From: Acidobacteriota bacterium
GTDB taxonomy: Bacteria; Acidobacteriota; Aminicenantia; Aminicenantales; Saccharicenantaceae
Reading direction: 5' to 3'
DNA length: 53,005 nucleotides
Assembly: GCA_014894455.1 (NCBI GenBank)
Contig: JADBLN010000028.1
Span: 1 to 53,005, forward strand
Positions 43,702 to 47,395 of this stretch are shown here, piece by piece. Under the pieces are notes generated by a model, which was not told the DNA's origin, made no database searches, and worked only from the letters and a program-made list of their open reading frames with translations. The number at the start of each line of letters is the position of its first letter. Position 1 is the stretch's first letter. The position numbers and the translations under genes were made by a program.

Positions 43702-45777
43702 ATGCCCATGACTGCCCTTAAGGTCCTTGCCCTTCTCAAGAAACACAAGGAAGGGCTGCCCTTCGACGAGATCCTGACCGAGCTCGGCGTCAAACGCCGG
43801 GACAGGGCCAAGGCGCTTGCGGAGATCCGGAAACTCGAAGCCCGGGGGCAAGTCCGTTACCTCCGCAGCCGCTTCCTCCTCGCCGAGAAGACGGACCTCG
43901 TCCGCGGCCGATTCGTCACTGCCCGTCCCGGCTTCGGGTTCGTCACGCCGGAGGGCGGCGGCAAGGACATCTTCATCCCCGCCCGTCATGCGCAGGGGGC
44001 CCTTCCGGGCGACGAGGTGACGGTCGTCGTCAACGAGCGGGGCAAGTTCGGCAAGCCCGAAGGGAAGGTCGAGCGCATCCTCAAGAAGGGACGGACGGCG
44101 CTCCTCGGCGTCTACCGCGAGCGGGGCGGCGCCGCCTTCCTTCAGCCGTTCGACTCGCCGTCGCAGGACGACGTCCCTCTCAAGTCCCGCGGCAAACTCG
44201 GGCCCGCCCCGGGGATGATCGTCGAAGCCGACCGAGCCACCCTGACCGTCACGCGGGTTTTCGGGATGCCCGAGGACCCGGGTGTCGACGCCCAGGTGGT
44301 CATCCGGCGGTACGGGCTCCGGCCGCAGTTCCCGGAGGAGGTCCTGAATGAGGCCGTCGGGATCGCGGACGTTTTATCCGCCGCTACGATCGAAGGGCGG
44401 CGGGACTTCCGCGACTGGCCGTCCGTGACCATCGACGGGGAGAAGGCCCAGGATTTCGACGACGCCGTCAGCATCCGTCGCCTCCCCGCCGGGGGCTGGC
44501 TCCTCGGCGTCCATATCGCCGACGTCTCCCACTACGTCCGGCCCGGGAGCCCGCTCGACCGCGAAGCCTTCGAGCGGGGTACGAGCGTCTATTTTCCCGA
44601 TCTGACCCTGCCCATGCTTCCCGAGAAACTGTCCAACGACCTCTGCAGCCTGCGGCCCCGGGAACCCCGCCTCACGGTTTCCGCCCTGATGGACATCGGC
44701 GACGACGGCCGGGTCCGCGGGGTCGAGTTCGCTCCTTCCATCATCCGCACGGCCCACCGGATGACCTACACTTCGGTGTTCAAGATCTTCGAAGGGGACG
44801 CCGCGGAAGCGAAAGCCTATGCTGATGTCGTCCCCGACCTCCTGCTGATGCGGGAGCTGGCCCGGGCCCTGCGGGAACGGCGCCTGGCCGACGGGAGTCT
44901 CGACTTCGACCTCGCCGAGCCCGAGCTCATCTACGAGGAGGGGAAGCTCCTCTCCGTCGCGGCCGCGGAAAGGAACGAGGCCCACCGCCTGATCGAGGAG
45001 TTCATGGTCGCCGCCAACGTCGCCGTGGCCACGGCCTTTTCGGAGAAGAAAATCCCGGCCATCTACCGGGTCCACCCCCAGCCGGACGTCGGCGACCTCG
45101 AAAAATTGCGCGACCTCATCCTCAATTTCGGTTTGACCCTGCCGGAGCCGGCCAAGGTCCGGTCGAAGGACCTCCAGCGCGTCCTCGAAAAGGCCGCGGG
45201 TCTCCCCGGCGAGAAGTTCGTCGGCCGGCAGGTCCTGCGGGCCCTGAAGCTCGCCGTTTATTCGACCGAGAACGTCGGCCACTACGGCCTGGCCCAGGTC
45301 CACTACACGCATTTCACTTCGCCCATCCGCCGCTATCCCGACCTCGTCGTCCATCGCCTCCTCAAGGGCCTCCTGGCCCGGGAGGAGCCGGGCCGGCTTC
45401 CCCTCGATACGATCGCCGCGACGTCCTCCGAGCGGGAGCGGAACGCCGGAGAGGCCGAGCAGGCGCTCCTCGAATGGCGGATCTTCCGCTTGCTCAAAGA
45501 CCGCTTGGGCGACGAGTTCAGCGGGATGGTCGTCGACGTCATCAAGGCCGGCCTCATCGTCGAGGTCGACGAGTACTTCGTCTCCGGTCTCCTGCCCTTC
45601 GACTCCCTGAAGGGGGACTACGAGCCGAAGCCGGGGGCTCGACGGCTCCGGCCGCACCGGCGCCGGAAAACGTTTGACTTGGGGGACGAAGTTCGTGTAA
45701 TCCTTGTCTCCTGCGACCCGGTCTTGCGCCGCATGAGCTTTGTCCCGGCGGCGGACCCGGAGGAACGCCGTCCATGA
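43702..45777 (+). CDS. rnr: Ribonuclease R
   Basis: A 691-residue 3-to-5 exoribonuclease. The order is an N-terminal winged helix (1-65), cold-shock domain (about 70-110; GFGFVTPEGGGKDIFIP), second OB fold, RNB domain beginning near 240 (DGEKAQDFDDAVSI with catalytic aspartates; HYTHFTSPIRRYPDLVVHR near 535-553) and a C-terminal S1 domain (about 610-690). A second Met two codons in is equally possible. The stop overlaps the next gene by ATGA. Confidence 0.94.
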   Translation: MPMTALKVLALLKKHKEGLPFDEILTELGVKRRDRAKALAEIRKLEARGQVRYLRSRFLLAEKTDLVRGRFVTARPGFGFVTPEGGGKDIFIPARHAQGALPGDEVTVVVNERGKFGKPEGKVERILKKGRTALLGVYRERGGAAFLQPFDSPSQDDVPLKSRGKLGPAPGMIVEADRATLTVTRVFGMPEDPGVDAQVVIRRYGLRPQFPEEVLNEAVGIADVLSAATIEGRRDFRDWPSVTIDGEKAQDFDDAVSIRRLPAGGWLLGVHIADVSHYVRPGSPLDREAFERGTSVYFPDLTLPMLPEKLSNDLCSLRPREPRLTVSALMDIGDDGRVRGVEFAPSIIRTAHRMTYTSVFKIFEGDAAEAKAYADVVPDLLLMRELARALRERRLADGSLDFDLAEPELIYEEGKLLSVAAAERNEAHRLIEEFMVAANVAVATAFSEKKIPAIYRVHPQPDVGDLEKLRDLILNFGLTLPEPAKVRSKDLQRVLEKAAGLPGEKFVGRQVLRALKLAVYSTENVGHYGLAQVHYTHFTSPIRRYPDLVVHRLLKGLLAREEPGRLPLDTIAATSSERERNAGEAEQALLEWRIFRLLKDRLGDEFSGMVVDVIKAGLIVEVDEYFVSGLLPFDSLKGDYEPKPGARRLRPHRRRKTFDLGDEVRVILVSCDPVLRRMSFVPAADPEERRP

Positions 45778-46850
45778 AAGCGTCCGCATTCGATGCCGTC
45801 CTCGATTTCCCGCTGGGGAAACACGGCCAGGACGTACGGGCCGAGGCCGTCTTCCCCGACGGTGCCGTCACCGCCCATTTCAGCGAGTATCCGGTCCCAG
45901 GCCGGAAGGACGCCCCGTTCGTCCGGGCCCTGGCCATCGGGCCCGTCGATGTCAAGTGGGGAGACCCGTTCGAAGTCGGGACGGCGGACGGCGGCATCCT
46001 CGGCCGCGGCACCTGTCTTTATCCGGGCTCCCCGTCGCCCGACGAGCTCAAGCTTTCGAGGCGCAAGGCCCTCCTGACGCGGTTCTCGCTCGGGGAAAAA
46101 GACATGATCCTGACCCTCGCGGAGGAGGGCGGCCTGAAGGGCCTGAAGGGGGAGGAAATCGCCGATTTCTGCCGCCTGCCCGGGTCCCGCGTCGAGGCCC
46201 TGGCGCGCCTCCTCGAGGAGGAAGGGAAAGTCCGCATCCTCGCGTTTTCGCCCCTGTTCCTCGTCTCCCAGGGCACCTTGGATTTTCTCCGCGGCCGGAT
46301 CGTTTCCTTACTCACCCAGTACCATAAGAAACACTCCTCCCAGAGAGGGGCCCCCCTCGAGAAGATCGAGAAGCGCTTCGACGCCCCCCGGGCGGTCCTC
46401 GTCCTGGCCCTCCGGCTGCTGGCCAAGGAGGGGCGGATCATCGAGGAGGCGGGGATCGTCCGGCTTCCCGATTTCCGGATCCCCCTCACGGCCGCAGACG
46501 AAGAGACCGTAGCCGCGCTCGAACGGATGGTCCTCAGCGGCGAGCTCGGGAGCGTGACCCTGGACGACATCCAGGCCGAATTCAAGCTCACTCAGGGGAA
46601 GCTTCATACGCTCCTCGCCGTCCTCGCCGAGCGGAAGAAGATCGTCGAGGGCCTGGACGGATTCATCCTCCATTCCAGCTGGCTCGACGAGATCGTCCGT
46701 AAGATCCGAGGGTCCGGGAAACGGGAATTGACCGTCGCCGATTTCAAGGTGATGACCGGCCTCTCGCGCAAGTACAGTATCCCTCTGCTTGAACTGCTCG
46801 ATAGTATGGGAGTGACACGCCGCAAGGGCTCTGTGCGCGACATTCTATAA
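45774..46850 (+). CDS. Free-standing SelB C-terminal winged-helix protein (no GTPase domain)
   Basis: A 358-residue protein resembling only the C-terminal half of SelB, the selenocysteine elongation factor. Winged-helix motifs are seen: LKGEEIADFCRLPGSRVEAL (about 125-145), SLLTQYHKKHSSQRGAPLEK (about 180-200) and the final FKVMTGLSRKYSIPLLELLD followed by SMGVTRRKGSV, which matches the SelB wing that binds SECIS RNA. The first 95 residues may be a remnant of an EF-Tu-like domain. No G1-G4 motifs exist here or upstream, where rnr overlaps by ATGA. It could be an RNA-binding protein or half of a split SelB. Confidence 0.75.
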   Translation: MKASAFDAVLDFPLGKHGQDVRAEAVFPDGAVTAHFSEYPVPGRKDAPFVRALAIGPVDVKWGDPFEVGTADGGILGRGTCLYPGSPSPDELKLSRRKALLTRFSLGEKDMILTLAEEGGLKGLKGEEIADFCRLPGSRVEALARLLEEEGKVRILAFSPLFLVSQGTLDFLRGRIVSLLTQYHKKHSSQRGAPLEKIEKRFDAPRAVLVLALRLLAKEGRIIEEAGIVRLPDFRIPLTAADEETVAALERMVLSGELGSVTLDDIQAEFKLTQGKLHTLLAVLAERKKIVEGLDGFILHSSWLDEIVRKIRGSGKRELTVADFKVMTGLSRKYSIPLLELLDSMGVTRRKGSVRDIL

Positions 46851-46966
46851 TTCACATCGGTCGCACTTGTTTTGTTCCGGAGGGATACAGTCCTCATCCT
46901 CATATTCTTATGAGGGTGAGGGCAGCGAAGCAGTCCTAACCCTCATGTTTCCATGAGGGTTAGGGC

Positions 46967-47041
46967 AGCATCCCCCTCCTTGAGCTATTAGACAGCATGG
47001 GGGTGACGAGGCGAAAGGGTTCTGTGAGAGACATACTTTGA
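46967..47041 (+). pseudogene. Recoded copy B of the SelB-like gene tail (24 codons plus stop)
   Basis: Encodes SIPLLELLDSMGVTRRKGSV then RDIL and TGA, identical in protein to the last 24 residues of the upstream gene (46776-46850). In the last 17 codons it differs from that tail at 13 positions, all synonymous. It has no start codon or upstream coding part and begins exactly where a hairpin ends. Confidence 0.85.
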
Positions 47042-47082
47042 CCCCCATGCAGTCCTAAGCCTCGTCTTCTGACGAGGGTTAG

Positions 47083-47133
47083 GATAGTATGGGGGTAACG
47101 CGAAGAAAAGGATCGGTCAGGGACATCCTGTAA
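47083..47133 (+). pseudogene. Recoded copy C of the SelB-like gene tail (16 codons plus stop)
   Basis: Encodes DSMGVTRRKGSVRDIL and TAA, again protein-identical to the gene tail, with 14 synonymous differences from it and none that change an amino acid. The 50 bases after the stop also match the 3-prime region of the real gene (TTCACA.CGGTCG...TTGTTTTGT), so the copy includes downstream untranslated sequence. Confidence 0.85.
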
Positions 47134-47237
47134 TTCACAACGGTCGTATTTGTTTTGTCCCGGATGGGATGCAGTCCTAATCCTCATCTCTTAATGACTG
47201 GTTCATCTCCCGATTGCGGAGAAGTCCTACATGAGGC

Positions 47238-47352
47238 GGCGATGGATGTCGCCCCGAAGACCCCCGTAGCGGAGGGGGGCCCGCCGAAGGCGGGGGGACC
47301 GTCGGGACAGGTCCCCTGGGGGGCCGGGGGGATGGGGGCGACATCCATCGCC
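47238..47352. repeat. Palindromic element, family R3, copy b, with 18-base terminal inverted repeats
   Basis: GGCGATGGATGTCGCCCC (47238-47255) is perfectly inverted at 47335-47352. Inside are CCCCCGTAGCGGAGGGGG and GGACCGTCGGGACAGGTCCC-type palindromes shared with copies at 31748 and 52781. The remaining sequence of the 545-base gap 46851-47395 is the hairpin array and about 40 bases on either side with no other feature. Confidence 0.8.
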
Positions 47353-47395
47353 CAGCCGAATAGAAGAGTTACCCGGAAACGGGAGATGAACCTAG

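Follow-up and report, generated by a model that had tools for sequence, protein, structure and literature searches.

Organisation of the locus

The window (the whole stretch of DNA that was analysed, 53,005 nucleotides from the genome of an uncultured Aminicenantes bacterium (Acidobacteriota), G000 in our numbering) carries an RNase R gene (43702-45777) adjoined by a SelB-C-like gene, the start of which at 45774 coincides with the RNase R end. The 358-aa product of the second gene contains SelB winged-helix domains 2 and 3 according to Pfam and lacks the GTPase domain, and the search for the SelB-like gene brought up no full-length SelB in G000. The gene itself was found in 60 of the 60 genomes of the initial search. 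Its working 3' end, tail A, consists of 24 codons and a TAA stop and is followed by two further copies of the tail, interspersed with hairpins and inverted repeats. Known structured RNAs and tRNAs were looked for as a target at the locus, and none was found. The features are as follows.

45774-46850, + strand: SelB-C-like gene, 358-aa product (Pfam SelB-wing_2, 2e-6; SelB-wing_3, 8e-16), conserved class-wide
46776-46850, + strand: live tail A (type I), with its junction, TACAG|TATCCC, at 46777|46778, where a divergence step against genome G004 lies (body 95% identical, tail 71%)
46851-46887, + strand: type I spacer after live tail A, ending in GAGGGATA (46880-46887)
46888-46925, + strand: hairpin 1, CAGTCCTCATCCTCATATTCTTATGAGGGTGAGGGCAG
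46931-46968, + strand: hairpin 2, whose GGGCAG foot meets tail B (GGGCAG|CATCCC)
46967-47041, + strand: displaced tail B, type II, 24 codons ending in TGA; corresponds to the G010 live tail (genome G010)
47041-47049, + strand: ACCCCCATG, inverted repeat of CATGGGGGT (46996-47004) within tail B (type II)
47050-47087, + strand: hairpin 3, whose GGATAG foot meets tail C (GGATAG|TATGGG)
47083-47133, + strand: displaced tail C, a type I tail that begins at the second junction site, 16 codons and a TAA stop; counterpart of the G004 live tail
47134-47171, + strand: type I spacer of copy C, with 2/38 differences from the spacer behind the G004 live tail
47172-47199, + strand: hairpin 4, left part only, cut by the inverted-repeat element 3' of it
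47200-47392, no strand assigned: MITE-like inverted-repeat element, GGTTCATCTCCCG...CGGGAGATGAACC, distinct from the array and interrupting hairpin 4
47393-47395, + strand: TAG beside the next gene; by-eye alignment suggests that its G010 equivalent is the stop of a native-looking last tail (TTTAG-CTACTTCG)

The units of the array share one order. After each tail comes either a spacer or, immediately, an inverted repeat of a tail site. A hairpin of the form CAGTCCT..AGGRYAG comes next, and its foot adjoins the following tail; all junctions lie at hairpin feet. The gap from A to B is 116 bp and that from B to C is 41 bp. Two types of unit can be told apart, each with its own junction site and with an inverted repeat matching that site. 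For instance, GAGGGATA is an exact inverted repeat of TATCCCTC, the start of live tail A. The hairpin feet (..GGRYAG) also resemble the two sites within the gene tail, TACAG|YATCCC and GAYAG|YATGGG. The hairpin arms covary, with 9 cells changed on both sides (1 of 500 shuffles scored as high), and the type II unit folds as DNA far better than its shuffles (z -6.5). At the far end of the array, the MITE-like element appears to occupy the former place of the native tail. Sequence like this element is also present beside the gene ends of genome G012.

Synonymous recoding of the tail copies

Tails A, B and C all translate to (SIPLLELL)DSMGVTRRKGSVRDIL and end in TAA, TGA and TAA, respectively. Of 75 bases, 20 distinguish A from B, and over the 51 bases shared by all three there are 13 differences between A and B, 14 between A and C and 14 between B and C, none of which changes an amino acid. 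A recount thus bears out the earlier note, which had described three protein-identical but recoded tails in tandem. If substitutions were random, all of them would be synonymous with a probability of 1e-10 to 3e-12 for A and B and, where pairs are compared over 51 bases, of about 1e-8; these values cover a range of transition bias.

It is important to ask whether the copies could be translated and selected where they now stand, either as a mini-ORF (MGVTRRKGSVRDIL) or by read-through. The same note had dismissed this partly on the ground that the copies lack a start, which is not strictly correct: each holds an in-frame ATG (DS-M-G), with an AGGA a few bases 5' of it in C and in the second tail of G010 (G010_2). 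However, B is also conserved 5' of this ATG, where all 9 of its differences from A in 30 bases are synonymous, which indicates that the tail was under selection as a piece of the whole gene. Since the frames of B and C relative to A are +2 and +1, read-through cannot explain the copies. Nonsynonymous changes are found in the displaced copies of G010 and G012, and most congeners have only a single tail. Translation in place is therefore very unlikely, and the note's conclusion on this point stands; read-through, which the note had named as a refuting explanation, was rejected.

Tail arrays in related genomes

A search with the 28-aa tail across 142 genomes of the class revealed more than one tail at the locus only in G000, G010 and G004. 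A decayed array lies on a second contig of G012 and there is a possible trace in G003; all of these genomes belong to one genus, most members of which have a single tail. The suggestion that a relative might be found with a live tail matching B or C proved correct for both copies. Copy C and the live tail of G004 are separated by 2/51 differences, with 2/38 in the spacer and a hairpin that matches too, while the G010 live tail differs from B at 4/51. Outside the array-bearing species, none of the native tails sampled is close to A, B or C (at least 8 differences). The largest stack, in G010, has four tails: a B-like live tail, one of type I, one of type II and a native-looking last tail that runs directly into the end of the next gene (TTTAGCTACTTCG). 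All genomes used here are draft assemblies and some are MAGs, which leaves room for a chimera of strains, but comparable arrays occur in the independent genomes G004, G010 and G012, with the same architecture in G004 and G010. An assembly artefact, which the earlier note had listed as a refuting outcome, is thus scarcely credible.

Displaced copies in these genomes decay. Changes include V>E and I>M in G010_3 and L>P in G004_2, and G012b_2 and G012b_3 have several changes and a lost stop. The unit has also been duplicated in tandem in situ in G004 (77 nt, 94%) and in G010 (167 nt, 84%), again with decay of the displaced copy. The window and G010 have B in common, at a divergence like that between the species, whereas the tail behind it is not shared (C and G010_2 differ at 12/51), and the history must therefore be more tangled than a single event per copy. 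The gene end is also present twice in G012, on contigs C271 and C266 (L036, L037); the two bodies are similar but the tails differ, which represents either a strain mixture or a second copy.

Similar gene bodies with different live tails

Between the window and G004, the body of the gene differs by only 5.0%, while the live tail differs at 16/51 bases. The comparison with G010 is similar, with 7.7% in the body and 15/51 in the live tail. The reverse is seen in the native genes of G005 and G009, where the body differs by 25% and the tail at only 6/51. The step in divergence at TACAG|YATCCC is significant in the window, G004, G010 and G011 comparisons (Fisher p 2e-6 to 3e-4), although the sequence flanking it is conserved and the crossover base is resolved only to a block. 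Array tails are also AT-richer than single native tails (GC3 of 0.38-0.69 versus 0.75-1.00) and show more synonymous divergence. Their third positions differ by 56-81% and type I spacers by 16-18%, which points to constraint on the spacer or to unusually rapid divergence of the tails.

This raises an alternative in which the tail region beside the hairpins simply mutates fast, with in situ duplication only and without foreign DNA. The drop in GC3 and the excess synonymous divergence of array tails would fit such a process, as would the in situ duplications in G004 and G010, and palindromes are known to be fragile, rearrangement-prone sites (PMC7999016). However, displaced copies should then gain nonsynonymous changes, yet B and C have none at 14/51 differences (p about 1e-8), and divergence is lower in the hairpin-adjacent spacers than in the tails. 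We regard this explanation as improbable.

Hairpins elsewhere and the search for a mobile element

Similar hairpins are dispersed at gene ends and make up a REP-like family (CAGTCCT..AGGGCAG), of which those in the array are members. A covariance model combined with the foot pattern detects more of them in G000, with other stems (C21, C84, C85:68248, C98, C115, C122), as well as several in G004; these additional hairpins are mostly intergenic and a few lie directly 3' of a TAG stop. The foot pattern CAGYCCT/AGGRYAG has 11 matches in 2.95 Mb, some of them by chance. Contig C21 of G000 (L049, 1-330) carries a row of hairpins with similar feet and different stems, directly after a TAG stop (YPV*) at the contig end. 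At another site, shared by G000 and G004 (C85:68248 and C15; L067, L112), a hairpin lies just 3' of one gene's TAG stop and upstream of the next gene; here G005 has only a short core (GGGACTGTCCC), several congeners have none, and about 2 kb of additional sequence is present in G004. In G034, of the same order, there are 18 matches to the hairpin model, several with identical scores, which probably form a separate dispersed palindrome family.

The earlier note suggested looking for other genes followed by hairpins and recoded tail copies. Such hairpin loci exist, but tail copies are absent from all those examined, and a scan of 328 kb of the genome, with 1529 ORFs, picked out only the SelB-like gene above background. 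The tail-hairpin unit was found nowhere but at this locus in the genomes, viral contigs, phages and plasmids searched. Across 84,980 species genomes, the strict hairpin pattern recurs only as chance coding matches, including two in Chloroflexi that look like chance in coding DNA, and it is absent from the viral contigs. As phages, plasmids and viral contigs are all without a match, a prophage or plasmid carrier was rejected.

Could the array nevertheless be the work of a dedicated, non-autonomous unit? Such a unit would consist of a recoded tail, spacer and hairpin, would insert site-specifically at AG|YAT while restoring the gene, and would depend for its movement on a recombinase acting in trans, either of REP type (RAYT/Y1) or of another kind. 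The precise junctions at one of two sites are consistent with this, as are the two types with their site-matched inverted repeats, the likeness of the hairpin family to gene-end REPs and a spacer more conserved than synonymous sites. RAYT-size Y1 transposase genes are also present in many congeners (L099-L110). However, the unit contains no mobility gene (integrase or Y1 transposase), and no Y1 transposase (PF01797) was found in G000 or in the 71%-complete G010. Where RAYT genes of the genus were examined, the palindromes beside them are different ones, such as GGGGACATGT..ACGTGTCCCC or AAGAAGGTACCAGG..CCTGGTACCTTCTT. These results, together with the empty searches above, leave the dedicated unit as a possible but tentative explanation, and RAYT mobilisation in particular was rejected given that G000 lacks a Y1 gene. 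A more extreme version is a minute selfish unit made of nothing but a recoded gene ending and a hairpin, spreading between species into one conserved gene, replacing its end without effect on the protein and mobilised in trans. We consider this version rather doubtful.

A model for the origin of the array

Our reading of B and C is that they are former live tails, displaced downstream as diverged tails arrived. This rests on direct comparison: live tails of relatives match the copies, gene bodies are near-identical while tails are not, the last copy of G010 abuts the next gene and displaced copies decay. To this extent the proposal in the earlier note, that older live tails were pushed away by recoded replacements, is upheld. 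Its second part, active insertion of a hairpin element that brings in the recoded tail, stands on less secure ground, given the hairpins elsewhere without tail copies, the absence of a mobility gene from the unit and the absence of Y1 from G000. Nor is a dedicated inserting element called for by the layout, as ordinary tandem duplication is seen in G004 and G010 and recombination with array-bearing relatives would give the same arrangement.

We give roughly an even chance to a model that combines hairpin-seeded tandem duplication with recombination among the arrays of relatives. REP-like hairpins, with feet resembling the two tail sites, lie at the end of the SelB-C-like gene in this genus, and a unit of tail, stop, spacer and one or more hairpins would have been repeated in tandem there. 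Lineages bearing the unit would diverge synonymously, with the live tail under strong protein-level selection. When DNA from a relative recombines into the locus, a diverged but protein-identical tail would take the live position, and the resident tail, left behind the hairpin, would lose selection and decay. A horizontal origin of the incoming tails is suggested because two diverged and intact tails should be unable to arise side by side with only one selected. We infer recombination rather than a dedicated enzyme, and likewise infer that the hairpins caused the duplications. Several findings sit poorly with this combined model. Among them are the lack of a close counterpart to A in the native tails sampled outside the array-bearing species and the tangled history around B. 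Simple exchange leaves unexplained the GC3 drop and the excess third-position divergence relative to spacers, and left junctions fall at the same short site in several lineages although homologous recombination needs no such site.

On this reading, the locus can be seen as a readable record of repeated end replacement, in which the tails that served as sources are still in use in neighbouring species. The synonymous identity of a gene end can turn over far faster than the remaining gene, which would mislead trees and codon-usage studies there. Two ideas also become testable: that gene-end hairpin repeats serve as tail-swapping recombination sites, and that a very small unit can persist because it restores the gene into which it inserts.

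Comparison with known systems

Stacked, recoded and protein-identical gene ends were not described in any work found in a limited literature search, but parts of the arrangement have parallels. In CIME-type accretion of att-flanked islands, serial stacking at a gene end leaves several copies of that end; the array described here differs in having no recombinase genes or cargo between the copies. Diversity-generating retroelements direct amino-acid-changing mutations to adenines and were rejected, as the differences among A, B and C are all synonymous and show no adenine specificity. Template switching can maintain complementarity between hairpin arms (PMC8794818) and could account for inverted repeats that track the tail they face, but not for protein-identical recoded tails.

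REP palindromes are known at gene ends (PMC3733652, PMC3116915), and the hairpins share with REP/RAYT systems their short imperfect palindromes, conserved feet and extragenic position 3' of genes. In contrast to REPs, which occur in high copy with GTAG or CGTC tags (PMC3733652), they have the CAGYCCT/AGGRYAG feet and few matches noted above, at only a handful of other loci and with variable stems. A Y1 transposase flanked by its own palindrome is likewise missing, as G000 has none and those of congeners have other palindromes. The gene tail inside the unit is a further feature foreign to REPs.

Att sites with a replacement gene end are also known, for example for prophages in icd (PMC10111431). 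Such elements place an integrase and cargo between attL and attR, whereas the unit here is about 100-190 bp, is stacked in tandem and lacks an integrase, the gaps between tails are only those given above and the locus yielded no complete element. The likeness lies in the outcome: incoming DNA swaps the 3' end, the gene remains intact and works on, and the old end is displaced downstream.
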